Shown here: piece by piece, positions 4,946-64,000 of the stretch
How the letters are laid out: the number at the start of each line of letters is the position of its first letter
Position numbering within the stretch: the stretch's first letter is position 1
Assembly: GCF_035083965.1 (NCBI RefSeq)
Contig: NC_089739.1
Coordinates: forward strand, 9,350,001 to 9,414,000
Direction of reading: 5' to 3'
Source of the DNA: Branchiostoma lanceolatum
Lineage: Eukaryota > Chordata > Leptocardii > Amphioxiformes > Branchiostomatidae
Length of the DNA: 64,000 nt
The notes under the pieces: generated by a model
Databases searched by the model: none
What the model was told of the DNA's origin: nothing
Seen by the model: only the letters and a program-made list of their open reading frames with translations
Program-made: the position numbers and the translations under genes

Positions 4946-7900
4946 TCAGCTTTCCTTCTTTGCGTTCTGCCTCTCAACCGCGGCGACCACCGTGGCGTGG
5001 GTCTGTGAGAACAGCATGTACACGGACAGCAGGGTGTTCACCACAAAACCCACGATACCGAAGGACGGATAACCCGCGTAACCAAGCATCAGGCCCCCGA
5101 CGGTCGGAGACATGGTGCGGATGATGGAGTTACTTGCCATGCTCAGGCCCAACATTGTGCCTGCAGAGGGAACAGAGGACAGAATATATTAAGAAAACAA
5201 AAATAACATTAACTCTCCTAGTTTTGCCGGGTACACTAAGACTGTGACATTTCTTTAAAATGGTGAATTTAAAGACTCTACAAATGCTGCATCAGCAATT
5301 CCTGAGGTATGCACATACCTGGTTTTCAAGACATTCTTGAGCAGCCCTTCATAACACTGTTTTTAATGATCTTAGGGTACCCGGCAGGATTAGGAGCGTT
5401 TACTTATTTAATAGTACTTTTTACTAATAGGTGATAGTAATTTCTATCCAGTTTTAATCAAAATCTTCTCTTCTACAAGCCATTATGCACTTTAGAAAAT
5501 AGGGTTACTATATGATTTCATTGAAACAAACTGTATATACATGTACAGCATGTATACGTGAGTTTAACATACTTGAAAAGAAAGGCTATTTTCCGACAAG
5601 TATACAATTGATAGTGGACATTGATTATTGCAATCATTTTTTGTTTGAGTGACATCAGCCAGGATTTAAACAGTCTCTTTTATTTTTTGCTTCAGAAACT
5701 CACCAACTTAGCTTAGTCTATTGGGTAACATATAAGTGCAGTGTTTGTTTGTTTGTTTGTTTGTTTGTTTACCTGTACTGTCCGGTGGCACCACCTTAGT
5801 GAGGGTGCTACTGATGACAGTGTTCATGATGGTCCCTCCGATAGTCAGGGGTATGACAGTCACATAGATGTGCCAGGTGACATTAGCTCCAGCCTGGAAT
5901 AGGAAAACAATCAATGCTATCAGTGCATTGCCAAATGAACATAAAAATGTCTTTCAATTCAGTATACTGGAAATTGATCTAAGTTCACAGGAAGTTCAAC
6001 ATAATTTTGCAGTTGAGGAAAGTTGAGGCATCCGTAATGTTTTAAATCTGTAGTTGAAAGTACCATTACTAAATGCAATAATGCGAGAATGAGCACATTG
6101 TTTGTGGTGTACACCAAGTTCATGGGGAGATTATTCATCAGAAAAAACAGATTCCACAGCTTTGATAGAATTTATTGTCAACTAATGAATTTCCCAATTC
6201 TTAATCTGTTTGAAATAACCAATGATACGTATATTAAATAGATCAGATTCTATCTAGTATTCATATTTGAGAGAAACTAACAAAGCAGACCTAGAACGAT
6301 GCAAGTTTGATATGAATTAAGATATGAAACAGGATTGAATAGCAAATGGCAGTACATGGATTGCCATATATGAGGAACCAATAGCAAATACTGTAACTCA
6401 CCAAGAGCAGGTAGCCAAAGGTGAACATGTAAATGGCCCACTTCAGCAGCAAACCTTCGTTATAGCGCTTGGTGAGGATTCCTACTCCGAGTCCCATCAT
6501 AACCTGAAAAAACAAGGAACATGTTGGTTTTATTTGAACCTTTGTTATTCATGAGAAGCTCAAATCGGCCTGCAGGCCGTTTTTCATTGAGGTATTACAA
6601 TACAGTACTTATTTTGTTACTTTGCAACAAAGAGGAGTACTAAGGATAGGAAATATTTATGACTGGAAAATAAGCATTGTATGTCATTAGTGCTGTAAAT
6701 CACTTTAATATAGCGGCAGGAAAATATAGCGGATGGGGGAAAATGGAGTAGGTCACCGCACTTAATATTAACGTTGGGAACAAACATTACTGTCTCAAGT
6801 ATTACAGATCAAATATTAGCTATGATAAAATTTTAGCTGTTCACTAGTGACCGTAAAATCAGCTAAAATTATGTTACAGTTAACAAATCAAGAATTACAG
6901 TATCCATTTTTCTTTTTTTGTGATTAAATACGGCTCATGTACGCTCCTTTTGCACCATCTTTGTACAAATTATTTAGTACTACAGTATGCATGGTCTCAA
7001 ACATTATTTTTTCTAGGAATTAAAGACAAGAATTGATGCGCTCGTGGATGTCATCCTTGCTATTATTTTACTTAGTCACTTTAAAGGCACCCATAGCATT
7101 TAATGAGGCTTGAAAACTGGAAATATTCTAGTTGCTATAATCTTTATGAAATTGACACTTGATGCCACATTTGCGTGGGAATTTCTTATCAAAAGTGCTC
7201 AAAAGTGGCACAAAACCAAGCTACATGGTGATCTTTTAGTTTCACGCGCCTAGTGTAAATAGACCGATACCATAGACCCGCCCACCTTCGTCGAAACGTA
7301 GAAATGCAAAATCAAAACATAAAAATGCAAATATTTGACGGACATACAGTCACTCTCTTATTGGTCAAACCACTAATTGTGATGGACAGTCAGGATCAGT
7401 CTATTAGGGCTTGGATTTTCCATCAGTTCTCATCACACAAGGACATCGTATCTTTGCTCCTTTAATGTCGATATGTAATAGTATAATGTTATTGAAACTA
7501 ACTATGTGTAGGAATGACTAGAAATTGGATTTTTTTTAGTCAAGTTTTAAGCCTCATAAAATGCTCTGGATGCCTTTAAGCTAGAGGGCATAACAGTCGA
7601 CTCACCATGTTAGACATTCCGATGTAGGACATGAGGTATCCGTTCTCCTCTGGACCGATGTTGAACCGGTCCATGGCGATCACACTGAACATGGACTGGA
7701 AAATACCCAGGGGAGTCCCCACTATGGTTCTCACCTGAAAATGGCAGTAAAAAGATTTCCACTCCAAGTTTCACAATTATCATTTGATTTTGATTAATGT
7801 CTCATATGATTATGACAATTTCTCTTTTTAGGAGTACATGCACCTATTGTCTAGTGTGGTAGATCATTATAATTATTCAAGAGACAGTATACTCAAGAGC

Positions 7901-10900
7901 CCACATAAAAACAATTGATATGCAGATACAATGAAGTAATAGAAAACTAGCATACACAAAATATACTCACAGTCTAATTATACTCTTACTAAAATTCAGA
8001 AATAAACTCACCAATAAAAGATAAGCAGCTACAGGAATGGTGAGAAGTTTGGCAATGGCTTTGACATCAAACACACTGGATGGACCAGAATCTGGAAAGG
8101 AAAAACAACATTAGATCATGCAGATGTTGAGAATTTCATCCATAACCCGATCAAATTCTGTAAAATATTCTGCTTCAAATGGCAGAGATGTCAAAGATTG
8201 CATTTGTGCATCTCAAAAGTGTGTGTGACCTGACTAACAGCAAAGACTACAGCAAAACCTGACCAATTATCATTTTGCACAGTTTGGTGCAGTACTTTGT
8301 CTCTTCACTAGGAGGCGTTCTTGTCATGTCACGGCATTTCTATACTCATAAGAACTTGAAGGATTCTCATGAAACGTTAACATTGTTGAGGCTAGAATGG
8401 AACTTAATCATCTACTAGAAAAGCAAATCTTTGGTTAATCTCAAAGTAAATGTTGGAAGGTACTATCACAATGTTTTTCTATAATACAATTGGCTAATTC
8501 CTTTCAAGAAACATGTAGCAATTTTGCCTTGCAACATTTGCTTGGAGACAAAACATTGAGATCTTGTATGTGAAAATGGCGTTATTGAAATCAGTTGCTG
8601 TGTTTCTTTGCTTGTCTTGGTGTGTGTCTACAGTTATGTGAATACTGGAGATTGGCAGAATTTCAGGCAGAAGTAGTGTACTGAGATTATTCATGTACTT
8701 GTTTTTGATAGTAATCTCTAAGCACTTCATTGATAAACATACCATCCTTGCTGGATTCTGAGGCCTTTTTCCCAGCTTTGGTGTTGGCAGGAATAAACAG
8801 CACCACCAGCACGATACTGACCAGGGAACCGGCCATGGCCAGGTACGCAGAGTGCTGCTCACTGCAGGGAGAGAGGGAAGGAAGGAGTGTGTCAATGAAT
8901 GAATAAATGACTGAATGACTGGATGAATGAATGAATGGATGACTGGATGACTGAATGAATGCATGAAGGAATGTGTGAATGAGTGAGTGAGTGGATGAAA
9001 ATGTAAAGGAATATGTGAAGGGGGGGGGACAGGATAGTACAGGGTGGAGGAGGGGCATTCAGCACCAAGGAAAGGGATGGTACAGAATATCACAGGGTGG
9101 AGGAGGGGCCTTCAGCACCAAGGAAAGGGATGGTACAGGATAGTACAGGGGGATGGATCTTCAGCACCAGGGAAAGGGATCGTGCAGGATTGTACAGGGT
9201 GGGGGACAATCCTTCAGATCGAATGATCATTTTATCATAGAATTTCAATGACTTACATTGGTACAAGCAAGACAATTAATAGTGACATCCAGAAAAAAAA
9301 AGTGATCTTGATACAGTTTTGCTTACAAAAGAGCTACTCTTCCACTGGTCATGAAAGAAAAGACAGACACTGTGTACAGTATTTACAGGTTCATTGTACT
9401 GGGGTAATTCCCCTAGCTCTTTTCGACAAGCACAATGAACAGTGGCCCACTGCTTAATGTCCAGTCCTAAGGACTGTGACCCTTTCCGGTAGAGTGAATG
9501 TCGGGTGAGCGACACAGCTGGAATCGACTTCACAACTTCTAGTTCCAGGGGTAGGGCCGATAACCACTGGACTATGCACACCAAGTCACCAACACAAAAC
9601 TGACCTGAAGTACTTGGTGACCTGTCCCCCTAAGAATGGCCCCACGATCATGCCGATGCCGTAGGACAGGCCCAGCTTTCCTAGAGCGTCGGCACGGGAA
9701 TTCTCATCAGAGATGTCAGTCACCACCATCTGGGCACCTGGAAATACATTGTAACACAATTCTATAGTACTTCAGTGTTTCTGTTTGGTTTACTGTCCTT
9801 GGTTGATTTTTTTCATAGATAAAACATGAAAGAAATAACAAAGACAATAGTGAACATATCAGCAACTTAGAATTCTACCACAAGATGGTATTTGTAAAAT
9901 ATTAATGAGCATCTAATATAGGACTATAGTATAGAGAAAGACAGCAAATGTCACCAAATTATACATGGTTTTCTTCTTCAATTTAGGCAATGCAAATTAA
10001 AGTTTAGGAATGACCTTTGGATTCCTGAAAAGTGAAAATGAAAAGAAAAAACAAAACAACTGATGGCGGTATTTTGAGAATTTGACACAGTAATATGAGT
10101 AGAACATTTTATCGGGAAGCCTGAAGTCACAAAGTTAGAGAGTTACAAGTGATTCCTTGACCCCAGTTACCCAATACAAATATACAGACATTTTGCATAC
10201 AGTACTTTCAACGTGTAGTTTGTTATTACCCACCTTGCATTGAGTGCATGAGGAAGGAAGGAAGTCGAGACAGAAACAGCAGCAACATGCCCTCCGCCAT
10301 TCCCAGAAGGCCATAGGACAGGGCGGCGGCCGAGAAGGCGAGCACTAGCGCCGATCTCGTGCCAAACAGGTCACCAAACCGTCCGAAGAGCGGCCCGCCA
10401 CACAGCTGGACCACCGCGAAGGTTGTCTGAAGGTAACCATACACCACCGGGTCCACTCCCAACTTTTTGGTCAGGTACTGAAGAAGAACAACACTCACAT
10501 GTAAAAAAAGTATGTAAAAATAAACCAAAACATGTTACATCGTAATGTTTTGACTTATCCTGTTGCTAAAAATGTGTTATTTCTACCACAAAGACAAAAG
10601 CCGAAGCACTGGAAAAAAGAAAACATTGCCATTGGCATTAAAATCAGCCTTGAGATCTAGAGATCATCCGGAAAGCATGGATTCTCTACACAAGATACCT
10701 GAATTTAACTTTTAAACTCATGTTTCTGTTATCATTGAAGACCATCTACATGTATTAGCTTGTCAAATAGTTCAGGTACAGGCACAGATCCAGACCTGTA
10801 CCTAACCTCTGTAGTGGTGCCTGTACCTGATGTTACAGCACTACAGACCATTCCTCTAATGCTGGATGTCTCTGCAGCTGGTTACAACTATTTGGTAACT

Positions 10901-12541: not shown

Positions 12542-13030
12542 TTAAAGGCATCCAGAGCATTTCATGAGGCTTGAATAAAAAAAACCTCCAATTTCTAGTC
12601 ATTCCTACACATAGTAAGTTTCAATAACACTATTCCATTACATATCAACATTACAGTAGCAATTTAGATACGATGCCATTGTGTGGTGAGGACTGATAGA
12701 AAATCCAAGCCCTAATAGACTGATCCTGACTGTCCATCAAAATTAGCGGTTCAACCAATGAGAGAGTGATTGCATGTCCGTCAAATAGTTGCATTTCTAT
12801 GTTTTAATTTTGCATTTCTATGGTATGGTATGGGTCTATTTACACTCAGGTGAGTGAAACTAAAAGATCACCATGCATGCATATTTTTTGTGCCGCTTTT
12901 GAGCACTGTTGATAAGAAATCTGCACGCAATTGTGGTAAACAGTGGCAACAAATGTCAATTTCATAAAGATTACAGCAACTAGAATACTTCCAGTTTTCA
13001 AACCTCATAAAATGCTCTGGGTGCCTTTAA
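12542..13030. mobile_element. TTAA-flanked MITE, about 490 bp (copy 2, inverted)
   Basis: Same family as 7081-7579 in opposite orientation. Ends read TTAAAGGCATCCAGAGCATT and AATGCTCTGGGTGCCTTTAA, with outer TTAA duplicates at 12542-12545 and 13027-13030. Internal shared blocks include the complement pair AGACTGATCCTGACTGTCC and GTAGGAATGACTAGAAATTG. It lies in the 5' intron of SLC22A18. Confidence 0.8.
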
Positions 13031-49693: not shown

Positions 49694-50043
49694 AATAAAC
49701 TCTAAATAACTTCAAGAGTGCTAACCTATGACAACTAAGAATGCTGTAAATTCATTAATGTTTGTGATGACTTAATTTTGTTTCAGAAGTGGAAAGTAGG
49801 TTTTGGCAGTGTTTTAAGATTGAGGTTGGAACAATTGTAACTGTTACGGTAGAAGTAATACTGTAACAATAGAAATGCGAAGAACATGAAAATAAGACCC
49901 CCGCAAACATTTGAAGATTTACAAATGTATGGTAGTTCCATCATATCTTTAACTTGTCATGATCTTTGTAGTAGGATTTGTCGTCTGCAATTAAAAGGGA
50001 GCCCATCAAGGGATCCCTGGTAAAGAATCATTTAAATAATAAA
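49694..50043 (+). terminator. Candidate poly(A) signals of APOOL
   Basis: AATAAA occurs at 49694-49699, only 12 bases past the stop, and again at 50038-50043. The second gives a more usual 3'UTR of about 0.4 kb. Confidence 0.4.
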
Positions 50044-52159
50044 AGCATGATACTACTTAACTGCATGCGGCTATATGTGATGTGTACATGTTACATGTAT
50101 GCACCTTTGATAAACTATACAAGCTTCTAGCTTTAGACTATGTAACATTCATAACATGTATGTTTTGCTTTTGACAGAAACAGAATGAACATGTATGCTT
50201 TATGAAAGACTGATTAAAAAGAATTCAACATCTGTTTAAGACAATACATATAATGTTGACTCATACATGTATCAGTGGAAAGTCTTTAGTTAGCTGTTTT
50301 TATTATTGATATAATTGCTAAGCAGATTATATTGAATGTTGTAACATGAAGTAACACTGCCACTTTCAAGCTGACTGCATTTGTGGCATCTCAGCGTTTG
50401 TGGAATTTGAAATGAATATGAGGTATGGAAAAACACAATATACAAGCTGTTAGTCTTTATTTTCTGTATAATTTTTATTTGTGTGTATGTGTGTGTGCAT
50501 GTGTGTTTGTCAGTGTGTGTGTGTGTGAATCTGTGTGTACGTGTGTGCATCTGTGTGTACAATGTATGTGTGTGTGTGAATCAGGCTATCACATTTATTG
50601 GCCTTTTTAGAAGTTACGTCTCACACATTGTGTTGTCCGTTCAACAGTTTATGAGGGACGTTGGTTTTTCACTTGTCATCACTTATGTGTTAATTGGTAT
50701 GGAAAATGGAGCCATTTTAGCCAGGTGTTTCCTGGATCCAAATATTCTCATGAGAAAGTTGAAAATTTTCTCAATAGCCAGGAGCATGGTTGTATCTTGC
50801 AGTTTAAGTTATGAACTTTCCTTGATTTGTATTTAAATCTTTCTTCTTTTATTTCATCCGGCTATTCTTAGAAGTCTTTTCTGTGAGCCATACCTGTACG
50901 TACACACACTTGATAACAGTTTTTAAAATGGTCAGAAGATTTCTAGATGTCCAAAATTGCTTGAGCTACAGTACAATTCACAAAATTACAAGTAGCTACT
51001 ACTGGCTCCAGATTAATTCATTTTCCAAGAATAATTCTGTTTAGCACTTGATTTTATCCTGCCTGTTGGAGTCCTTTAAATCCTTCTATTCATTTCATCA
51101 GGCTATCCTTAGTACTCTTCTCTGTGAGCCACACGCACTTAATAACAGTTTTTTAAGAGGGTTAGAAGATTTCTAGATGATCAAAATCGCTTGAGCAACA
51201 ATTCACCGAATCACAAGTAGCTACGACCGCCTCCATATTTGTGTCCCTATGACATCACATGAGGATGATCCTTAGAGAAAAGATACTCTGAAGAAAGTTA
51301 GGAAAATTTTGTATAAAATCATATCAGAAGTATATGTCTTTCTCCTTAATGTATGTTGGAATGTTTTTTTTTTTACTTTATACAGAAGATTAGTATACTA
51401 ATTTTGTATATGTATATTTCTCAAAATGAGAAGTATAAGATGTGTCGAAGCAGCCAATTGTTATTGTTACTATGATTGTCACAGATATGGGCGTAAAATA
51501 TAAAAGGCACCACGGAGGCTTAACTCCACATTGTTAAACTCAAATATTTCATTACTCAATGTGGCCATTAACATTCATATACATCTACGGTAACACCCCC
51601 ATACAATTGTTAGGATAACCAGTGTATGTCGTATGATAACTTTACGACCTTCAATGCTCACATTGCACAAAGACTACGGCATTCCGGCAGAGTATCAGAA
51701 GAATGTTACTTTTTCCTTCGTGACTATTTATCTGTTTCTTTTTATTACTTTAACGTTATACTTTAGTAAATTTTGAATGTATATTCGCAAAAAGAGCAAT
51801 ATGTGATATGTCAAAGCAAAGAAATGTTATTGTCACCACCAGTGGCATCACAAATGATGGGCGTGAAATATAATTGGCCAGGTAGGCTTAACGCCCCATT
51901 GTTGAAAATGGCTTTCAATAGTGGGAAACATCAATTTCTCAAATTTCATTACTCAAGATGGCCATTAACATACGTATATACTTATTGTGTTCCATACAGA
52001 TGTTGACTCAGAAGCGCGTTGCTAACCAGCGTATGTCAGTATAATTTCCCTTGGGACCTTCCGTGCTTGCATCTCACTAAGACTACGGCTTTCCTGTGCT
52101 CTTCTGTTTTCGTGCTTTCGGCCGAGACGTTTGTTTGAGTCGGTCGAACATACAGAAAC
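50044..52159. other. Intergenic interval upstream of the mosaic channel gene
   Basis: No supported exon. It contains a TG-rich repeat (50483-50578). About 160 bp at 50840-50990 is tandemly repeated at 51065-51235 (GGCTATTCTTAGAAGTCTTT / GGCTATCCTTAGTACTCTTC; AGAAGATTTCTAGATG). A diverged ~260-bp duplication follows (51439-51690 and 51790-52100). Confidence 0.6.
51439..52100. repeat. Duplicated promoter-proximal segment
   Basis: Blocks shared in order between 51439-51690 and 51790-52100: TTGTTATTGT/TGTTATTGTC, GATGGGCGTGAAATATAA, GGCTTAAC-CC-CATTGTT, TTTCATTACTCAA, TGGCCATTAACAT, AACCAG-GTATGTC, and AAGACTACGGC-TTCC. The second copy ends about 60 bases before the mosaic gene's ATG. Confidence 0.75.
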
Positions 52160-54950
52160 ATGGCCAAGTTAGGCCTAGGCTTGGCTGTTGCCGTTGCGTT
52201 TGCCATTTTTCTTGTTGTCTCTTCTGAATCACCGCACAGTAAGGAACATTTTGTCTACTTTATAGCTGTGTTGCTTTTTGTTGGCTTAAGTTGCGCTAAA
52301 ATGTTTTAGACAGTAGAAGAAGTCTTTATGATTTGCCCTGCCTCATTGTCTATGATACCGTATGATGTAGCATCAATTCAACGTGTGCGTACATTTCTTT
52401 TTTTGCATGCTTTTAGTTATTTTCTGTATATCGTATGGCAAAAAATTAGCGCTCTTTGAAACGACAGGCAAATATAAAACACAAAGACAGGAAAGCACAG
52501 ACGGAAGATGATCATTTGAATATCAAACCTAATGCCTGTATTGCCAACCACAATATTGGCGACAGTGGTCGATGCAAATTTGATCCGTGGACACCTTAGT
52601 GTTGGAAGAAAGTTTAGCATTGTACTATAATTATTACCAACACCGTTGAGCTTCCATCATACTTTTTCTTGTCCTCCCAGCCTGTCTACAACCACTTGGG
52701 ATGGAGTCGGGTGTCATACCTGATGACCGCATCACTGCGTCCTCGTACCCGGCCCCAAATTTCGAGCCCTACCGCGGGCGCTTGAACGGAGCTGCCGATG
52801 CAAGCGCCTGGGCAGCAGGAAGCAACACCATCGGGGAATGGTTGCAGGTAGACAGACATTTTGATCTGATAAACAGTCGCGAAAGTTTAGAAAATGAATG
52901 TTTTCTATGAACTTCATCCCCTAGCTCCCACCATTAGAATATCTATGTTTGTGTTGAACTTAGTATACAAGGAGGATTGGTCCGATCTCTGTCATTCTTA
53001 AAAAAGACGAATAAAGCCAATCCGGTCTAATTCCGTCTCAGGGGTGTCATTATCCTAGAACTACGAATGGCAGTCGCGCTCTGCTAGTTTGGAAAAGGAA
53101 TATCTTCTATGAACTTCATCCCCTAGCTCCCACCATTGCAACATCTATGTTTGCGTTAAACTTGAGCCGGTATCAACTTTGTTATTCAACTAAATGTCAT
53201 ATTTCCTTTATCTCAAAAGTACAAAAGGAGGAGTGGTCCGATCTCTGTCATTCTTCGAAAAGACGAATTAAGTCGAAACCGGTCTAATTCCGTCTCAGGG
53301 GTGTCATTATCCCAGAACTACGAATAGCAGTCACGCTCTGCTAGTTTGGAAAAGGAATATTTTCTGTGAACTTCATCCCCTAGCTCCCACCATTGCAACA
53401 TCTATCTTTGCGTTAAACTTAATTCGGTATCAACTTTGTTATTGAACTAAAAGTCATATTTGCTTTATCTCAACAGTGTCCCTACTTTAATAAGGTCTAG
53501 ATTTGATATGTTTGGCATGGAATGTGCTGTATCGAGAGTACAATGTACCCTACTTGTGGTCTCCTTTCAATGAAGACCGAGAGTTAGTTAGAAAGAGTTA
53601 GTTTGCTCTTGCATTCATGTGAACTTCTATAACGAAAAATAATTATTGACCTTAGGTGGATTTAGGGTCGACGAAGCGTATCACGGGTACCATAATACAG
53701 GGCCGCGCCACATACGACCAATGGGTGACCTCCTACAAACTTCAGTTCAGCCAAGATGGCACTTCCTGGACAGCATATCAAGGCGGCAATGGCGCAGAAA
53801 AGGTGTCCTCTTGATTATGTCTCCATTTTGTAAATTATGGGGGAAACTGTTATTATCTGTTATTGTATTACATGTATCTTACATCTTCTACAGTATACCC
53901 ATGGGTGTCATTTAATCTAGTCTACAATGTAATCCTTATCTTCTGTACATGTCAGTGTCATTTGCTTTGAGATATTTCTCGCAATCTCCCGATTACAAAG
54001 CGAGCACACTACCAATTACGCTATTGCATCGGTGTCATGTATATCAAATAATGTCTAGACGCTAGAAATTGTTCCAATGATTGTAAAAGTTCATCATCCC
54101 ATTCTATATACTCTTGTATTAGGTAGATTAGCTTTATAGAACTGTAAGTACCAGTAGATGCCATATTTTCTACCTTGTACAGTTGTTGTGCAATAAAGTT
54201 AAATCATATGAATCCGTTCGCCTTTCAGGTATTTGAAGGCAATACGGATAGGAACACCCCCGTGACCAACCTGCTGGACCCCCCGGTTGATGCCCGCTAC
54301 GTGCGTTTCTACCCTCAAACTTGGAATCTTTACATCGGCATGAGGGCAGAGGTTTTGGGCTGCAACACAGGCAGTAAGTTTCTTAGAAACTACATGTATA
54401 AGGTATTTTAAGTCTTTGTTGAGGCTGACCTACAATGTATAGCATTTTCACTCTTCCTGTATAATCGGAGGAAAGTAAAGGTTCTGTTTCTCCTTTCTCA
54501 TTTTTCCAGCATCCTTTTTCTTTCTTTTGAGTAATATCTTCAGCGGACCAAACGCCTATCCAGTATCATTCATTTGTGCCTAGGGTAAGCTGTAACAAAT
54601 TGATGGGTGCAAATAAAAGGTTAAGTGCATTTGATTTTAGGTAAGCATTTTTAATCCAGAAATTGAAAATAACCAATATATGAATATATGAAAATATGAA
54701 AGGCAAAATGTAAAAGGAAAATTGAGACACACATATTCACACGCGCGCGTACACATACACACACAAACACACATACACACATACAAAGCGCGTGTGTGAA
54801 TTTTTTTCTCATCTATGTATAATATAGAGAGAGATGCATATATGGATAGGTAGATAGATGACAGAGTGACATATAGATAGATGGATTATCTCTATATATC
54901 TATATATCTATATGTACGTATGTATGTATGCATGTATGTATGTATGCATG

Positions 54951-55023
<73 letters not shown>

Positions 55024-58000
55024 ATGTGTGTGTATGTACGTATGTATGTACTAGTATGTATGTATGCATGCATGCATGTATATATATGTATGTCTCTCTG
55101 TCATCTATCTACCTATCCATATATGCATCTCTCTCTATATTATACCATATCATTACCTTCCGCATTTATCAAGAATAACGTTACTCACATGCAATTAAGG
55201 GCCAAAACATATGTAGGATGACAAATAGATAAAACTACATGTATGCACACACTGTTTTTTTTTCACTAAACAACAGAAAAAATATACAGGACATAGAGAT
55301 GATGCGCTCTAGCTATCGCTAATATTAAACATCATCTCTGGAAATAATCATTACAACTTACATAGATACAATAACAATAAGAAACAGCAATTGGGTCGTC
55401 CAATACAAACTAACTAACAAACAAACAAACAATCAATATAATAACACACCTGTACTACGTTTCAAAAACGTTTGCTTGTAGCAATAAAGTCCTGTGTCAA
55501 GCCCAAAATTTTACAATTGATATCAAACGAAACAGAGGATAAACCTCTTAATAACAAATAAATGAGTGCTTGATTAGACAAAGTGTCAAGAACAAGTATG
55601 GGGGCACTGTTGACCAGCAAAAATAATGCATTCTACACTCACTGATGTAATCTCTATTCTTTTGGATTTTTCTAATGAGCAGACATTCGGACCTTGAAGA
55701 ATAAAATGAAACTACATGTACTGTCAATTCACTTTCTGTGCATTATCATAATGAAAAAGAATGCAACATAAGAAAAAAAACAGCCTGACAGGTGTTCTGC
55801 TGGCAACAAGTGCGTTTTACAAAATATTTGATGTTGTGTTACCTGAGTGACTAATGGCATTTCCTGTGTCATCAAAACACCTGCTGATGAATAAATCATT
55901 ACTCCCAAATTGCCCCGGCTCGTCTTTTGTGAAGGGATCATGAGTTCGAGATGGGTCATTATGTATTTGCCAGTCATTCAAAGAATTACACTCCTTTGTT
56001 GTACAACATGCATCATGATGACATCGATAAAAACGTACCATCAAAGGTATATTCAAGACTTTCCACTGAAAGTAGCATTTGAAATTGCCACTTAAATTTT
56101 ATCATTTCAGTATCAATTCCCTTCATGGACCAGAGAGTAATTGTAATGTAAAATGCTACAAGTAGTTGTTTTTTTACAGCCAGCTGTGGCAGCTTTTGAC
56201 CGTTGCATCTCATTGTCATGTTGGAAGTTTGATTTAAGCATACTTAGCATTAAGGGATGCATCTTTTTTTTCAAATTGCAGCCCAAACAACAACAGCTCT
56301 ACATTCATCCACTACAAAAACCACAATCATGGCAACCACCACTGCGGCAACTACTACTCTTGGAGCTACTCCTGCGCCCACTCCTACTACTGCGGCCACT
56401 ACTACTCCTGGAACTACTACTGTGCCCACTACTACTCCTATAACTACTACTGCGGCCATTACTACTCCTGGAACTACTACTGCGGCCCCTACAACTCCTC
56501 TAACTACTACTGTGCCCACTACTACTCCTATAACTACCTCTGCGGTCACTACTTCTCCTATAACTACTTCTGTGGCCTCTACTTCTCCTCTAACTACTTC
56601 TGCGGCCACTACTACTCCAGGACCTGTAACTACTACTGTGGCCTCTACTACTCCTCTAACTACTACACCTGGCTCTACTAATGCGGCCACTACCAGTACT
56701 TCAGGAGCAACAACAGGTGAGGCTGATGTACATTTGACAGCGCTGGTGGAGGCCTCCGGGCTAAGACAGTGACCGAAGTCAAGTAACTCTTTATAACACT
56801 TTTGAAATGTAGACTGAGACAACTGATAAGGGATCACATTGTATGTATGGTCAATGTACATAATATAAGTTTTCCCCAGGAAAGGCCACAGTAGGAGATA
56901 CTTCCTTAGTGCTGTACCCAGGGCACAACCATCTCATCTTTAATGTTTTTTATAGGTTGTCCTCCTGGCTACGCTCCGTTCGGGGGTTCGTGCTTCAAGG
57001 CGTACAACCAAGACAAAACCTACAACCAGGCCAGGCAGGTGTGTGCAGCGGATGGGGGGCTTCTGGCCATGCCGAAGGACAAAGAAGCGGACAACTTCTT
57101 GAGAGACCTGAAGAACGGCGTGGATCCCAACTCACCTTTCTGGTTCGGCCTGAGCAGTCAGAAAGGCGAGGGCGGTTGGGTGTGGGAAGATGGGACTCCA
57201 CACAACACAGCCGCAGACCGGCCGTATGGGGGATGGCAGCTGGGGGAACCCAGCAATAAAGGAGGAGGAGGAGGAGGAGATGTCTGCGCCAACCACTTCG
57301 AAACCGGATGGAACGACGCGCCCTGCTCGTCTGCACAGAAGTTCATCTGCCAGCTGAATGATGGTATGCCAAGTAACATTGTATAGGTACCCATAACATG
57401 CATGCACATAACACATATGTCTAGGCTAGTAACATGTTATTTTGCATCTGCAAAATCTACTGTTATTCCTTTTGCCTGGTGCAAGGTATATATCAATTGA
57501 AAAAAAAAGTTTCACCGAAAGGGCTAAAAATACTTGGTGCATGAAATGCTTTTTTTGTGTACAGTTCATTCTGGTTTAAATCTTATAATTAGAAGATGTG
57601 CTTTGCTGCAGATGGAGCATAACTAAACAAAGAACACAGTTAACAGGTTGTTTCTCTACACAGCAGTCCACTGCCCCCTGGGGTACCTCCGGTGCGGACA
57701 CGGACATGGCTGCATCCTGGCCTGGAGGCGCTGTGACGGGCGGACGGACTGTTCAGACGGGAGTGACGAGGAAGGTTGTGGTGAGTTGGGCTCACATCTT
57801 AACCGTACATGCGGGTGCTTGTAATGTTTTCATTAATAGTAGAAATTACTCTTTCTACTGTTGGCAAAGATGCTTAGAAAAGGTCTTGATATTCATTATT
57901 TCACTTCTCTTCTAGCTATAAATACTAATCTACCTCACTCAACTTATGTTACCGTTAAACTCCAATGGTGTTTTACCCTTTTCCTGTCATGACCTTAAGG

Positions 58001-61000
58001 GCTAATAAATGTAGGCAAATGGTCACTCAGTACTGTGGGAAAAAATTGCATGAGTTGTAGAAGACTTTATTTTTTTCTTGTAAACATTCTGTAATGATTT
58101 TATTGTATGTTGAACAGATTTTTGAATCAATGATTATTTTCATGTTGTTTGTCCGTGCTTCCTGTCAATGTTTAAGCATGTGATGTCTGTGATGTTGAAT
58201 GTCTGTATTGTTGTAATTTTCAGAGTGCCGGCCGATTCCTGCGGATTTCAACCTCGGGGGTAGACTTGCTATGCTACCTAATCAGCTGGGCCAGATGACG
58301 TTTGAGGAGATACAGAATTCCTCTGTCGTGGAGCTGCTCAACAACCCTGCCAGCAACGCAGAGAACCAGCATCCTGAGTTCCGGGAATTCGCATCTACGG
58401 TCATCTTCCCGCGATGTGCTGTCTCGGAAGAGAACACCACTTCCTGCACTTCGTCTCAACATGCAGACAACACGACATCGTGCATGTGAGTAAAACATGC
58501 TGCAGTTGATTTTGATATTGTTACCGTGATTCTGATAATTTACATTAGATTCACTTTTATTTCTTAAGATGTATCTCTAAACATGCTTCATTTGATTTTG
58601 AGTGGACATTTGTTGCAATAATTTTGGTTCTCTACATTAAAGTCACTTTTATTCCTTAATATTGACTGGTTAACAACAGCCACCTGGCCATCTATACTCA
58701 GGATTGCGACATAAACTATAAGCACTTATTTGTTGTTTTGTTTTACAGGTCTAAGCATATGTAGTAGCTGTTGTAACTGGTAACAAACCTCACATTGTAT
58801 GTCCAGTAGTTTTTCTAAATATGCCGCTGTTTTGTAGGGACACACAGCTGCTGCCGTGCCGTTCGTGGTGCGAGGAAGTCAACAAGGCTGATGGCCGGAT
58901 GAAGAACCGGTTCCCTACCTGTGACCTGTTCCCGTCACCACCACACCGCTGTTGGAACCCTGAACCAGACACCAAGAGCAACAAAGGTACATGTGTATTC
59001 AAGACTTTGCACTGAAAGTAGCATTTGGGATTGTCCGACTCAAATTTTAGTATTTCCTGCATATCACTTCATGCATTGTAGATAAGAGAGTAATAATACA
59101 TGGCTTGGTATTCTTTTCTGCCAGCTGTTGAAGCTTTTGATCCTTGTATCTCATTGTCATGTTGGAAGTTTGATTAAAGCATTCTTAGCATTCAGGGATG
59201 CGTCATTCGGAAAATCTATACGATAAATTGCTAATCAGAAATATGGCTGTTGGTCTTCCTCAGGTTGCTTCCATGGCAATGGCATGAACTACCGTGGTAC
59301 ATGGAGTACAACCAAGTCCGGGGCGGAGTGTGCAAAGTGGTCCGCTGCCCAGGCTGGTTTCTACGCGATCAAGTATCCGTGGGCCAACATGGACAACAAC
59401 TACTGTCGCAACCCTACCGGGCTGGAGCGGCCATTTTGTCTGGTGGAAGATGGCAGCCAGGAGGATTGTGACGTCACTCTGTGTGGTAAGTTGTCTCGTC
59501 AAGATGGGAGACATCTTTTGAACCATACCATGTTCCTAAGGCCACCCCAACTCATTTCTGTTTCATTTTGTTATATATTGGACTATAATAACCAGAATGA
59601 GTGGGCACAGACCATATGCCAACTTTCACTTTGTTATGTATTTTTGTGATACTATTGTCTGTGAGGATTTCACCCTATGTTGTAGATTTATTAGGACTTT
59701 ATCATGTAATCTGTATCTTTGTGATAACAGTTATGTTTTTTTTACATGAATGGAGAAAGGTTCGAAAGATCAAAAACATTATCATGAAACTTCATCAGAT
59801 GATGATTTTCACTGCCTTTGATATTTTCTCATCACACCCAGGTGCCGTCGGTTGCTGGGACTTGGGTCCACCAAACTACGGCAACAGAAGCCCAATGAAG
59901 AGGTTCTACAACGTGGGAGAGAGGGTCGCGTACACCTGCAATAGGGGGTACTCCATTAAGTCAGGACATCCCGGCGAAGTGAGGTGCACCGAAGGAGGCA
60001 TCTGGGAAGATGACAAGCCCAGCTGTTCAGGTAAGGTCATTTATTTAGGTGATTGTGATATATTCTTTGCAGTGAACAAGCTTGTAGTGTGTACTCAGAA
60101 TAATATGGTATCCTAAGTTGAATAGAAATGTGATAATCTGATATCAAAAACTTGTGCAATAGTTCAAACTATTATCTTTTGTTATTAAGTTTTGTTTTAA
60201 AGATCTTTTTAAGTCAATGCAAGAAACAAGTACAAAATATGATCATGACCATTTTAAATGTTCACAGTATCTTGTGTTCATATTAGTTGCCTTTCTAATT
60301 GATGAGCATGTACTTTTTCCCTCCTCAGAGAATATGGAGCAAAAGCTAGCAGAGGAGTTGCTGGATGTGTACAGTCCGTCCCAGGCACCTGTGGCTGAGG
60401 CTAAGGTTGACACCGCGACTGCAACTGGCACTGATGACACTGGGACCGAGACTGACACCGATGACACTGGGACCGGGACCGGGACCAATGACACTGGGAC
60501 CGGGACTGGGGCTGATGGCACTGGGACCGACACTGGGACTGCGACTGATGACACTGGGACCGGGACCGGCACTGATGACACTGGGACCGACACGGATAAC
60601 ACCGGGACCGGGACCAAGGCTGAGAGCCATCCCCGGTTCATCATCGGCTTCAACGGCTATGTGGAACAGATCGTTGACTTGGTAAGCTTCAGACTGTCTT
60701 GCAGGTTTATAACAGATATATATGACTCATGGAGGTAACTTAACACAACTAATCGATGCTACAACTTTTATTTCAGGATGAAAAGAAGGAGTTCCTGATT
60801 GCCTCTGTTGTCATCGACTTTGTAAGTTGACCTATTTATGAACTTTTCATCATTCCAGTTTCCATTCAAGTAATCTTGTAATGAAGATTTTTGAAAGATT
60901 TTTCTATAGTAATTGTTATGATATGCACAACAAAATCATTTTGTTTTGTTTTGTTTCAGACTTGGCAGGACAGCCGACTGAAGTGGGACCTTAAGTACTA

Positions 61001-63573
61001 CGAGAACATTGAGAGTCTCACCGTCCCAGCCAGCAGCATCTGGACACCAACATTTACTCTGAAGAGGAAGTATGTAGACTCCTTATCAATTGCTATCATT
61101 GAATCAAGATTTAATCATGTTAAATCTGCTTTCTCATACAGATAATGAATTGTACTAACGATATTGTTTTGCTAGCAGGACGCGTGGTGTAGAGGTCTGC
61201 GTACTGGCCACTTGCCTTTCTGTTTCAAATGCTGTGGAGCCAGGGGTCCTAGGTTTGCGCCCAGGTCTGGATACGACTGGAAAAGAGTCGCATCGTCTTT
61301 TTTGAGTTGGGCGTAAAGCCATCGGCCCCATTTATGAGGCCGAGCTTTAGGCGTTAGTCTTTAGCGCCAAACTTCTGCGCATAAAACACACTTATCCAGA
61401 AGAATAAGGGTGACCCGGTGTGCTTGGGCAAAAATGCGAGCCGTAGCGAAACCGCAGCGCACTTACCACAAGCTCCTTGAAAAAGCATGGTGCTTCACCT
61501 CAATTGAGTATAACTGCTTTATCTTAAGCAGAAACAATATTCTGAATTTACAGTGCCTTAGCTGAAGCTGAATAAGGGTCTTTATCATTTTCACACAACC
61601 AGGAAGTCTCTGAAGAAGGTAGCCCTTAAAGGATAGTGTCTTTTTTTAACCAACCCACGGAAGATTACCAGAGTAATGGATTCAGACGCACAAGGAATAT
61701 CATTCTAGTAGTGGAAACAACATCTTAACTTTTTAATCCAACACTAGTCCAACAAACAAAATGAACAGCTCATGTGCGAAGGAACAGTGGTTGTCGGAAA
61801 ATTATGACACTGACTAGTCTAAGGAAATGACAAGACTTTATTGGTTACTCCACAGTGCTAACCCATTGTACGAAGGCCTACCAAAGGACGTACCACTCCG
61901 GGTCAGCCTAAATGGTACGGTAACATGGAGGGTAGAAACTCTGACTACCACCATTTGTGAGGCAGACCCGTTCTTCTTCCCCGCTGACACCATGACATGC
62001 GACATCTGTTTCTCTGCATTCTCAGCAATTGGGGAATTCATTGGTAAAGCTTTACAAATGTCATGAAAGAATATTGATATCCATTAGTTTATCTTACGAG
62101 GGCAGTTCAATAAAGATTTTTCTCTGACTTATTTCAGTTTACTAGTATTGTAGAATGCTTAAACTTGTTTAAGTGGAAAAAACTGTCTGACAAGATGTAT
62201 GATAGGGACTACTGGAAGCTGAACTTTGTGAATGGTACAACCCTTTAATAGAAAAAGAAATATAATGCTGATTCTGTAGAATGCTACAATTGTACAATAA
62301 TGTATACCTCTACATGTACCCTGCTTGTTATTATTCCTGAACACCAAATAGTTTCTCCTTTAAAGGTACCGGTGGTAATGTAGATTTAGGTGTGATGACA
62401 AAGTCAGTGGAATGCACTTGTACTTACTAATATGTTAGAAATTGGATTCTCACCTTCACAACAAATGTGTTGTTTTAATGGCCGAAATTTCAGCAAACTT
62501 TTTAGGCTAGCTTTGTAGGGTAGATGAAATGCTTATCCTTTTCTCATGGTGACTTAACGACAAGAATGCATTCCCGAACATGGCAAGAAGTAGTATATTC
62601 CATGCCAGTCATGGTCGGGAATGCCTTCTTGTCACAAGAGTTATTTAGCCCTTGGTCTTAGGAACAGAGACATAAGGTTGCTAAAATGTTGACAGAGAAA
62701 ATCGCATAAGAATCCAGTATACATATTATTAGTCATTGCTCTGCTTTCCATAAGTATCTGTATACTTTAAGGATATATCTTGATGATAATTCGTTGTGAT
62801 GATTTGTTGGACACAGAATGCGGAGAGGGCAGTACCTGTGACGTCTGGTCTACCGCAGAGCCTGAGGGTGAGTGGAATCGGAAGGACAAGATCTCCGCAA
62901 GAGACAACAAGGAGGCGTGCTTCACTCTCCAGCTGGACAGGATGCCCCTGTTCCACCTCGCCACGACTGTCGGGCCCTGCGCCATCCTGGTGGTGCTGAT
63001 GATCATCACCTTCATCATGCCCATAGACAGGGGAGACCGGATCTCCTTCGGAGTGACCATCCAACTCTCTGTGGTCATGTGCCTCGTGTTTGTCACAGAG
63101 GTACTTCCTGTCAAGGGAGCCCTGCCATTTTTCGGTGAGTAAAGGCAGATGTATTAAGTTGTGCTGTTCTTATTTCTATTTGCTGTTTTTAAACTACATG
63201 TATTTGAAAACAAAGTTAAGCTTTTGTATGCTGCTTACTGGAAAATGAGGCTCTTGCATCACAACCTAGACGATATTTTTGTAACTCCTCAACTACTTTT
63301 CGCAGGCCTAAAATGGACCCTGCTTAGTCTATGTTGCTGTTAAGATTCAAGCATCAGATTCTCATTTTCTAATAACCAATCCTAATAACATTTCCACAGA
63401 ACATTCCGCTAACTTATAATTTATTATGGAAATGTTACAGCCGCGCTGATCGTCGTGTGCATGGGCCTGATGGGAATTTTCCTCTTCTTCACCATCGGCA
63501 TCATCAAGATCCACGACAAGGAGGGGAGCCTGTCTCCAATGGCGAAGAATTTCTTTCTCCGCTACATGGCAAA
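52160..63573 (+). CDS. Mosaic receptor-channel: F5/8C, mucin, C-lectin, LDLa, Fz, kringle, sushi, then Cys-loop channel (3' end outside window)
   Basis: Exons 52160-52238, 52681-52847, 53656-53802, 54229-54373, 56282-56716, 56956-57363, 57664-57780, 58224-58485, 58838-58986, 59264-59485, 59842-60030, 60329-60681, 60777-60821, 60960-61069, 61856-62043, 62817-63134, 63441-63573. Every junction is GT-AG and phase-compatible, giving at least 1155 residues with no stop. Residues 1-22 are a signal peptide (hydrophobic LGLAVAVAFAIFLVV). Domains: F5/8C about 28-178, Thr-rich 180-324, C-type lectin 325-460, LDLa 461-499, Frizzled-like 500-636, kringle 637-710, sushi 711-773, channel ligand-binding region from 774, Cys-loop 977-991, M1 about 1052-1075, M2 1081-1100, M3 about 1112-1134. 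M4 should lie past 64000. Inferred role: a surface cation channel with a large adhesive/lectin-like ectodomain. A false merger of two adjacent genes is the main alternative. Against it, no stop, poly(A) signal or new signal-peptide exon is seen between the sushi exon and the channel exons, and phase 1 continues. Confidence 0.82.
52681..54373 (+). CDS. Exons 2-4: F5/8 type C (discoidin) domain
   Basis: Three exons (52681-52847, 53656-53802, 54229-54373) encode about 150 residues, the full usual length. CLQPLGMESGVIPDDRITAS is the classical domain start. WLQVDLGSTKRITG is the central strand, YKLQFSQDGTSW the SxDG motif, ARYVRFYPQTWN the RYVRI-like strand, and EVLGC the closing cysteine. F5/8C domains bind phospholipids, glycans or collagen. 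The block is entered and left in phase 1. Confidence 0.93.
52870..53475. repeat. Tandem 257-bp repeat in intron 2 of the mosaic gene
   Basis: CTATGAACTTCATCCCCTAG, GTCCGATCTCTGTCATTCTT and GGTCTAATTCCGTCTCAGGG each recur with a period near 257 bp (for example CGGTCTAATT at 53023 and 53280). There are two full copies and a partial one; noncoding. Confidence 0.85.
54818..55144. repeat. Long hairpin: ~57-bp inverted repeats around TA/TG microsatellites
   Basis: 54818-54874 (TATAATATAGAGAGAGATGC, ATATATGGATAGGTAGATAG, ATGACAGAG) is the near-perfect reverse complement of 55084-55144. Between lie (TATG)n, about 50 bp of (TA)n and (TG)n. A CA repeat lies just upstream (about 54727-54790). Confidence 0.85.
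56042..56263 (+). repeat. 220-bp intronic repeat before the mucin exon (partner 58982-59206)
   Basis: Shared with 58982-59206: CAAAGGTA, TATTCAAGACTTT-CACTGAA, AGTAGCATTTG, GCCAGCTGT, GCTTTTGA, TCTCATTGTCATGTTGGAAG, AGCAT-CTTAGCATT and GGGATGC. It ends 18 bases before the acceptor of the Thr-rich exon. Confidence 0.85.
56282..56716 (+). CDS. Exon 5: Thr-rich mucin-like stalk
   Basis: About 145 residues, mostly Thr, Ala, Pro and Ser in imperfect repeats (TTTPGTTTA-, TTTPITT-, TTSPLTTSA-like), matching ACTACTACTCCT-type DNA repeats. It would be densely O-glycosylated and extended. It is a symmetrical 1-1 exon. The repeated DNA makes copy number likely to vary between alleles. Confidence 0.85.
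56956..57363 (+). CDS. Exon 6: C-type lectin domain
   Basis: A single symmetrical 1-1 exon. CPPGYAPFGGSCFKAY opens a long-form CTLD; then ARQVCAADGGLLAMPKDKEA, FWFGLSSQKGEGGWVWEDG (WIGL-type core), GEPSNKGGGGGGDVCANH, GWNDAPCSSAQKFICQ. The GEPSN and WND residues resemble the EPN/WND calcium-sugar site, with an extra Ser and a six-Gly run, so sugar binding is possible but unproven. Confidence 0.94.
57664..57780 (+). CDS. Exon 7: LDL-receptor class A repeat
   Basis: Six cysteines and the calcium-binding CDGRTDCSDGSDEEGC element are intact. The start can be 57664 or 57667, because the acceptor is a CAGCAG tandem; the choice adds or removes one Ala without shifting the frame. Symmetrical 1-1 exon. 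Confidence 0.92.
58224..58986 (+). CDS. Exons 8-9: Frizzled-like cysteine-rich domain
   Basis: Exons 58224-58485 and 58838-58986 are joined in phase 2 internally and are phase 1 outside. ECRPIPADF starts the domain, LPNQLGQMTFEEIQ corresponds to the Fz 'LPNLLGHxxQEE' helix, and LLPCRSWCEEV and RFPTCDLFP match the 'PCRxxCExV...xxCxxFP' part. The second cysteine (usually after the C-x-PI start) is absent and the central cysteines are shifted, so it is divergent. Fz-CRD followed by kringle recalls ROR-type receptors. Confidence 0.85.
58982..59206 (+). repeat. 220-bp intronic repeat before the kringle exon
   Basis: Partner of 56042-56263. It begins at the very end of the second Frizzled exon (CAAAGGTACATG spans the donor) and ends about 57 bases before the kringle exon. 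Confidence 0.85.
59264..59485 (+). CDS. Exon 10: kringle domain
   Basis: Symmetrical 1-1 exon of 74 residues. CFHGNGMNYRGTWSTTKSG, ECAKWSA, NNYCRNPTGLERPFCLVEDG and DCDVTLC give all six kringle cysteines in order and the diagnostic YRG and NYCRNP motifs. The lysine-binding DxD is not evident (the ERPFCLVEDG region differs). Confidence 0.94.
59842..60030 (+). CDS. Exon 11: sushi/CCP domain
   Basis: Symmetrical 1-1 exon of 63 residues. It has four cysteines in CCP order (GCWDLG, VAYTCNRGYSI, EVRCTEGGIW, PSCS) and the conserved Trp before the last cysteine. CCP modules are protein-binding in complement and adhesion proteins and also occur next to invertebrate channel subunits as clustering factors. 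Confidence 0.92.
60329..62043 (+). CDS. Exons 12-15: ligand-binding region of a Cys-loop channel
   Basis: Exons 60329-60681, 60777-60821, 60960-61069, 61856-62043. MEQKLAEELLDVYSPSQAPV matches the N-terminal helix of nicotinic-type subunits. A ~70-residue Asp/Thr/Gly repeat (TGTDDTGT-type) is inserted before strand 1. Then FNGYVEQIVDLDEKKEFLIA, WQDSRLKWDLKYYENIESLT and VPASSIWTPTFTLKR align with the conserved channel core. Cys977 and Cys991 enclose exactly 13 residues (EADPFFFPADTMT), the defining Cys-loop. Loop A has WTPT instead of WxPD, and the loop B Trp is replaced (CFSAFSAIGEF). Confidence 0.9.
61180..61510 (+). mobile_element. SINE-like element in mosaic-gene intron
   Basis: A-box-like GTGGTGTAGAGGTCTGCG and B-box-like AGGTTTGCGCCC are spaced by about 55 bases, followed by a GC-rich body unlike the surrounding intron. 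The 3' end is not clear. Confidence 0.45.
62559..62633. repeat. Short foldback in mosaic-gene intron
   Basis: GACAAGAATGCATTCCCGAA, then CATGGCA on the left pairs with CATGGTCGGGAATGCCTTCT, then TGTC on the right (two mismatches). About 75 bp in total. Confidence 0.75.
62817..63573 (+). CDS. Exons 16-17: pre-M1, M1, M2 and M3 of the channel
   Basis: Exons 62817-63134 and 63441-63573. M1 includes the conserved Pro-Cys (TTVGPCAILVVLMIITFIMP). M2 aligns residue by residue with alpha7-type nicotinic receptors: Asp1079 (-1'), Arg1080 (0'), Leu1089 (9'), Glu1100 (20'), then VLPVKG. There is no Pro-Ala insertion before M2, the anion-channel signature. M3 is AALIVVCMGLMGIFLFFTIG. The exon ends in phase 2 at 63573, in what should be the M3-M4 cytoplasmic loop. 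There is no stop codon before the window end. Confidence 0.92.
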
Positions 63574-64000
63574 GTATGTACTACTTGTAATATCTATATG
63601 CATAATTCCACCAGAGTAGATACGTCAAACAGATCTCCAACACAATATCCCTCAGTATAATGCACTCCTGTATATCTTAACTGTGATGTATATCTTAACT
63701 GTGCATACCTGTGGGGTGCTGCACGAGAGATCTCTCAAACCCACTTTTTTTTCAAAATGGCAGATTTATGTAACCTGGCAGATTAATGTTAACGGAGGTT
63801 AACAATATCTAGGGTTAGACTGAATTACAAAAGACAACAGATTGCAAATTATGTATAAACCCAGTGGACATGTTTGCTTTTTTCTTTGTTTTGTTTTGTC
63901 GGTTGCTAAGTTTTCTTTCCTACTTTTCACTTGGGCTGAGAACAAAGTGATCAACCTTTTAGGACAGCTTTGCAAATTTTATATTATGCAATACAGCATC
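63574..64000 (+). other. Intron at window end
   Basis: Sequence after the donor GTATGT at 63574. I see no further exon here; M4 and the gene's 3' end must lie beyond the window. Confidence 0.6.

Follow-up and report, generated by a model that had tools for sequence, protein, structure and literature searches.

A predicted lancelet gene that joins a nicotinic-type channel subunit to a string of six adhesive module types

Introduction

Can a single animal gene encode both a Cys-loop channel subunit and the extracellular modules that would anchor it? This question is raised by one stretch of 64,000 nucleotides of the lancelet Branchiostoma lanceolatum (hereafter the window), in which the original prediction had joined 17 exons in one frame, from a signal peptide through an ectodomain of seven module types into a nicotinic-type channel. 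Such models call for care, since domain differences between lancelet species have been traced to prediction errors, and one false lectin-fn2 fusion was common to two lancelet species (Banyai and Patthy; PMC4967905, PMC6071037, both in part). Similarly, a survey of pLGICs warns that where a pLGIC fragment is combined with an unrelated one, the assembly may be unreliable (PMC4795631, in part). We rebuilt the gene model from the window, searched its translation, and weighed the single gene against the alternatives.

Results

We rebuilt the 17 exons from the window (Table 1), and they indeed gave a single open frame (52160-63573, forward strand) of 1155 codons without a stop. All 16 introns were GT-AG and the phases agreed at every exon join. 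The window contains no N, and the G+C content was 42-67% in the exons and 26-42% in the introns. Splice sites were ranked against the GT and AG sites in 52000-63990 with leave-one-out matrices from the same gene. By these matrices, several sites were weak, namely the acceptors of introns 8 (54.9 percentile) and 16 (75.8 percentile) and the donor sites at introns 2, 3 and 9 (72-77 percentile). Introns 11, 14, 15 and 16 were scanned for extra small exons, and a single weak candidate of 24 bases emerged in intron 15. No paralogue of the gene model was matched elsewhere in the window (tblastn, E up to 1), no Rfam match occurred in 50000-64000, and no tRNA was found in the whole window. One scan of viral contigs, which reaches close relatives only, returned six pattern matches and no relatives of the model. 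The predicted gene, confirmed as a gene model, appears to join a nicotinic-type channel subunit and a string of six adhesive module types.

Table 1. Exons of the predicted gene and the intron between its adhesive and channel parts
Feature	Position in window	Strand	Content	Phase and remarks
Exon 1	52160..52238	+	Start codon and signal peptide MAKLGLGLAVAVAFAIFLVVSSESPH	Ends phase 1
Exon 2	52681..52847	+	F5/8 type C, part 1	
Exon 3	53656..53802	+	F5/8 type C, part 2	
Exon 4	54229..54373	+	F5/8 type C, part 3	Ends phase 1
Exon 5	56282..56716	+	Thr/Pro-rich mucin-like stalk	Phase 1-1; internally repetitive
Exon 6	56956..57363	+	C-type lectin domain	Phase 1-1
Exon 7	57664..57780	+	LDL-receptor class A (LDLa)	Phase 1-1; six Cys
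Exon 8	58224..58485	+	Frizzled-CRD-like module, part 1	
Exon 9	58838..58986	+	Frizzled-CRD-like module, part 2 (LLPCRSWCEEV)	Ends phase 1; weak acceptor
Exon 10	59264..59485	+	Kringle	Phase 1-1; six Cys
Exon 11	59842..60030	+	Sushi/CCP	Phase 1-1; four Cys
Intron 11	60031..60328	+	Sushi-to-channel join	298 bases; critical to the one-gene reading
Exon 12	60329..60681	+	Ligand-binding domain (LBD): N-terminal helix, then in-frame Thr/Gly/Asp minisatellite, then first strand	
Exon 13	60777..60821	+	LBD DEKKEFLIASVVIDF	Phase 0-0; 45 bp
Exon 14	60960..61069	+	LBD	Phase 0-2; 110 bp
Exon 15	61856..62043	+	LBD with Cys-loop (C-x13-C, FPAD)	
Exon 16	62817..63134	+	LBD end, M1 and M2	
Exon 17	63441..63573	+	M3 and start of the M3-M4 loop	

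We then searched the translated model against Pfam. The F5/8 type C domain (PF00754, F5_F8_type_C; 2.1e-33, residues 44-173), the C-type lectin domain (PF00059, Lectin_C; 2.4e-17), the LDLa module (PF00057, Ldl_recept_a; 1.6e-8), the kringle (PF00051; 5.2e-16), the sushi module (PF00084; 6.1e-7) and the channel LBD were all found, whereas the predicted Frizzled domain was not matched. The signal peptide has a hydrophobic core (Kyte-Doolittle 3.28 over 11 residues) and the stalk is 55% T+S, so that its composition, together with the Pfam matches, upheld the remaining modules of the head as they had been proposed. The cysteine counts were as expected in all modules but the Frizzled part. The ectodomain had been called seven-type; it comprises six folded module types, the seventh element being the Thr-rich stalk, which is not a folded module. 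Within intron 2, a 257-base tandem duplication with 91% matches was observed at 52962-53477.

Modules of these kinds could also belong to an immune or microbe-sensing channel of a phagocyte or an epithelium, in which the lectin, F5/8C and sushi modules would recognise glycans, either microbial or self, and so gate the channel or recruit it. In keeping with such a role, the lectin presumably retains its WND motif and the LDLa module has what we take to be its acidic cluster, but the lectin EPN motif is, on the same assumed assignment, replaced by EPS. Lancelet immune-related domains do form new pairs via promiscuous modules (PMC4284660, in part), but amphioxus adhesion GPCRs bear the same modules, namely kringle, C-type lectin, LDLa and discoidin (PMC2246102, in part), and we consider the immune reading quite improbable.

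The Frizzled-like module and its pairing with the kringle, which had been likened to the ROR arrangement, held in part. Exons 8 and 9 matched no Pfam family, the Frizzled domain included, and no PDB chain, up to E=10 in either case. Against a small custom CRD profile made from six CRDs (one verified, five provisional), their two-piece match (6.9 and 7.0) scored 13.0 bits, above the best of 2000 shuffles (9.2 bits; 1990 reported). A Frizzled CRD has ten cysteines in five disulfides; here six of the ten canonical cysteines aligned, C2, C3, C4 and C8 were missing, and two of the module's eight cysteines were extra to the canonical set. By the connectivity that we assume, the missing four would make up two complete disulfides. 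We hold with moderate confidence that exons 8 and 9 represent a strongly diverged Frizzled-type domain; the custom profile puts the module above shuffles, but four of its ten cysteines are lost and neither database matches it.

ROR receptor kinases consist of Ig, Fz and kringle domains, a single TM and a kinase. Like them, the model has a Frizzled-like module adjoining a kringle, and among the best 60 of 120 PDB matches the kringle aligned to ROR1/2 as well as to plasminogen, apolipoprotein(a) and HGF; one ROR2 chain in this set aligned also over the end of the Frizzled-like module and thus spans both. Unlike them, it has neither an Ig domain nor a kinase by Pfam, which sets it apart from the ROR receptor kinases, and among the single-kringle chains in the same best 60 of 120, apolipoprotein(a) (56.4 bits) and plasminogen (54.8) scored somewhat higher than ROR1 (49.7) and ROR2 (48.4). 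The resemblance to ROR therefore extends to the adjacency of the two modules, with a very diverged Frizzled part and a kringle for which ROR1 and ROR2 are outscored. A lysine-binding kringle was also considered. The region that carries an acidic pair and a Trp in plasminogen kringles reads RNPTGLERPFC here, and lysine binding is doubtful because both the acidic pair and the Trp are absent.

The channel part was examined in the same manner. The Neur_chan_LBD profile (PF02931) matched at 5e-26 from profile position 24 with the repeat insert in place, and at 6.6e-30 from profile position 1 once the insert was left out. This insert is a coding minisatellite inside the top of the LBD (60424-60589, TRF; 27-base unit, about six copies), which is possibly polymorphic in length. 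Since the N-terminal LBD helix lies in exon 12, the sushi exon is followed at once by the channel, which in the model lacks its own signal peptide, and the adhesive ectodomain and the nicotinic-type channel indeed stand in one model. Neur_chan_memb matched at 9e-6 with 26.5 bits, just under the cut-off of 28.1, and with 28.6 bits without the repeat insert. M1-M3 aligned to nAChR chains, and the Cys-loop, CEADPFFFPADTMTC, with two Cys 13 residues apart and a Pro motif, aligned to nAChR Cys-loops. The LBD profile, the C-x13-C spacing and these alignments bear out the nicotinic-type channel that had been proposed. In the best 60 of 181 PDB matches, the top ones were nAChR chains (5.2e-29), with nAChR beta, alpha4 and alpha7 leading and 5-HT3 next; the identity to alpha4 and Torpedo beta was 25-26%. 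Among the PDB chains compared (best 60 of 181), the channel part thus appears nearest to nicotinic receptors.

We then compared the binding loops with those of alpha4, taking the roles of the nAChR loop residues and the M2 numbering to be the usual ones. The loop D W is V, the loop A Y is K and the loop B W is F; the loop C tyrosines are lost, and the vicinal CC aligns to IS. Neither feature of an nAChR alpha subunit, the vicinal cysteine pair of loop C or the aromatic box, was found. Counted by hand, the segment between the Cys-loop and M1 has ten residues fewer than its alpha4 counterpart, with two alignments placing the gap differently. Because the acetylcholine-site residues are lost, ordinary acetylcholine gating through the predicted subunit is unlikely, and the protein looks like a non-alpha or orphan subunit. 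Meanwhile, M2 keeps D-1', L9' and E20', which suggests that the channel is cation-permeable.

The gene structure may also be that of a nicotinic subunit. The N-terminal helix, DEK and TW are each preceded by an intron, and exons of 45 and 110 bp occur; these intron positions and exon sizes presumably match the canonical nAChR gene layout. Every vertebrate nAChR gene has introns 1-3 in common with the others (PMC6354393, in part), and the portions of PMC2792709 and PMC2045683 drawn on here give no canonical exon lengths. No M4 exon or stop codon was assigned in 63574-64000, and the gene presumably continues past 64000. A hydrophobic open frame starts at 63865, after the best (fair) acceptor of this region, and leaves the window at 64000; it could be a further exon or chance. 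In intron 14, the segment 61180-61500 looks SINE-like by eye; it has no tRNA and no Rfam match and is single-copy in the window.

The lost residues raise the question of a decaying or unexpressed fusion gene, a recent product of shuffling without function. Besides the acetylcholine site and four of the ten Frizzled cysteines, the repetitive coding insert and some weak splice sites, above all the intron 8 acceptor, would fit decay. Against this, the 1155 codons run without stop or frameshift, GT-AG is kept at 16 of 16 introns, the Cys-loop and the pore residues are retained, and the module cysteine counts are as expected outside the Frizzled part, where the loss presumably takes out two complete disulfides. 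We regard decay as very improbable.

The most critical join is that across intron 11. An alternative to the single gene is a pair of neighbours. One would encode a secreted lectin-like protein of several modules that stops after the sushi exon; the other would encode a nicotinic-type channel, with a first exon inside intron 11 or a start at an ATG at 60217, and the shared frame would be a phase-1 coincidence. Module edges often coincide with phase-1 boundaries, which makes it easy for exons to join in frame by accident, and false fusions of this kind have been described for lancelets (PMC4967905, PMC6071037, both in part). On the other hand, the gap is just 298 bases, and its donor (99.3 percentile) and acceptor (98.9 percentile) are each the second best among the 16 introns. 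A transcript end after the sushi exon had been named as a point against the single gene, and we looked for it through the poly(A) signals of intron 11: AATAAA and ATTAAA are absent, but the weaker variants AATAGA, AAGAAA and TTTAAA occur. When the sushi donor is read past, 27 more residues precede a stop, with no clear membrane anchor by eye.

A separate channel start in intron 11 had likewise been named, and here, too, the result was divided. Our scan of introns 1-11 for phase-1 signal-peptide exons gave 30 candidates, two in intron 3 and 28 in the intron 4 microsatellite, and none in intron 11. However, an in-frame read-through from the ATG at 60217 (60217-60328) into exon 12, MQETSTKYDHDHFKCSQYLVFILVAFLIDEHVLFPSS, contains a hydrophobic stretch (KD 3.17) and is a possible alternative start for the channel. 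By eye, a net negative stretch lies ahead of its hydrophobic part; exon 11 has a similar and more hydrophobic in-frame extension (KD 3.37), and such extensions were seen at two of the 16 internal exons. The two-gene case is weakened, although this read-through speaks for it, and we judge it unlikely.

An assembly artefact, with two loci misjoined in the contig, would produce the same model. Two 220-base repeats, 76% identical, lie at 56047-56266 (intron 4, before the stalk exon) and 58993-59207 (intron 9, before the kringle exon), and no further long copy was found in the window; the pair is possibly a trace of shuffling or of a mobile element. Repeats can misjoin assemblies, and misassembly is suspected in some mixed pLGIC models (PMC4795631, in part), but neither copy lies in intron 11, the window has no N, and neither base composition nor splice quality shows a break at that intron. 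Misassembly appears extremely improbable.

That the adhesive head and the channel form one gene is likely, short of demonstrated, because the exon joins are computed and some lancelet gene models have proved to be false fusions (PMC4967905, PMC6071037, both in part).

Elsewhere in the window, ORFs at 4949-10534 on the minus strand resemble an MFS transporter, which we take to be SLC22A18-like; Pfam MFS_1 matched two of the four pieces searched, at 2.3e-9 (above the cut-off) and 1.4e-6 (below it). Part of this region is flanked by an inverted repeat of about 500 bases with 83% identity (7081-7579 and 12542-13030). An ORF at 147-707, presumably recalling a chitinase-domain protein (CHID1), contains one 24-residue phrase twice, and neither of the two pieces searched matched a Pfam family.

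Discussion

Ordinary nicotinic subunit genes have an intron between the exon for the signal peptide and the first exon of the LBD. We propose that the lancelet locus is a single gene built by exon shuffling of symmetrical phase-1 modules. In the simplest history, 1-1 modules would have been inserted into this canonical first intron, in the order F5/8C, mucin-like stalk, C-type lectin, LDLa, Frizzled-like, kringle and sushi. Exon shuffling predicts phase-1 module boundaries, and all eight module-boundary introns here (1, 4, 5, 6, 7, 9, 10 and 11) are in phase 1; the three introns inside modules are in phases 0, 0 and 2. Indeed, exon shuffling in lancelets is biased to 1-1 exons (PMC4284660, in part).

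Such a gene would encode a subunit of nicotinic type, similar to cation channels, with its LBD capped by about 750 extra residues. Because the normal acetylcholine-site residues are absent, it would most likely serve as an accessory (non-alpha) subunit or respond to a ligand other than acetylcholine. The modular head may act as a covalent extracellular tether that binds a glycan, lipid, matrix or guidance factor and thereby places and clusters the channel, a task for which other animals use separate scaffold proteins such as LEV-9 and LEV-10. On balance, we lean towards a tethered accessory nicotinic-type subunit from one shuffled gene. The computation itself establishes the open spliced frame, the domains, the splice-site strengths, the intron phases and the loss of acetylcholine-site residues; from these we infer one transcript, pentamer assembly, conductance and tethering. 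As a mechanism, tethering is preferred to gating by the head, which is possible. The wider proposal, that a clustering and matrix-sensing head is fused to the Cys-loop subunit so that glycan, lipid, matrix or Wnt-type ligands, not acetylcholine, would place or gate it, strikes us as tentative and rather doubtful.

If a transcript confirms the model, this would be an ion channel with its own anchor. With the fused head one could then ask directly if an extracellular tether gates a Cys-loop channel or just positions it, and the gene would be a test case in the debate on lancelet domain novelties, which may be genuine or may stem from faulty annotation.

Compared with nAChR subunits, the model shares the LBD, the Cys-loop (C-x13-C with FPxD), M1-M3, the cation-type M2 residues and an identity of 25-26%. 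It differs from them in an added segment of roughly 750 residues, comprising six module types, that precedes the LBD, the minisatellite in the LBD top, the shorter stretch from Cys-loop to M1, and the loss of the vicinal Cys pair and the aromatic box. Additional domains on pLGICs have precedents. The bacterial pLGIC DeCLIC likewise has an extra domain N-terminal to the LBD, described as modulatory, but it is prokaryotic, and its added domain is not one of the animal adhesive modules of the model (PMC9897478, PMC12664993, both in part). pLGICs joined to other domains exist, on evidence that is so far genome-level only; the survey names no such module set in the portion cited and warns of assembly errors (PMC4795631, in part). 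For mollusc nAChRs, additional domains such as GAIN or dynamin have been predicted, but kringle, lectin, LDLa, F5/8C and sushi are not named there, the "other functional domains" being counted and not itemised (PMC6896357, in part).

According to the original prediction, no described receptor is known to have this order. We found none in the literature searched, including the portions of PMC6526094 and PMC11788884 drawn on, which held no channel fusion of this kind, but PMC4967905 (in part) names a lancelet orthologue pair, 269420_PRF0 of B. belcheri and its B. floridae partner, identical to each other in architecture, with Neur_chan_memb in an unspecified novel arrangement that is apparently Branchiostoma-only. 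This pair is compared with our model by Neur_chan_memb alone, its full domain list standing in Table S2 of that paper. The locus is consistent with a known channel class carrying an ectodomain order not found in print in the literature searched.

The same kinds of modules sit on membrane receptors in the amphioxus adhesion GPCRs, but these are 7TM proteins and not ion channels (PMC2246102, in part). A functional parallel to a tether would come from LEV-9 and Hig, which are CCP proteins, and LEV-10 (CUB/LDLa), which hold acetylcholine receptors in C. elegans and Drosophila (PMC9083331, in part). Like the head of the model, these are extracellular proteins bearing CCP or LDLa modules, and they place acetylcholine receptors; unlike it, they are separate from the channel, and LEV-10 acts via CUB, its LDLa being dispensable (PMC9083331, in part). 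Thus, in the worm and fly cases separate scaffolds place the receptor, whereas in the lancelet gene exon shuffling would join both functions.
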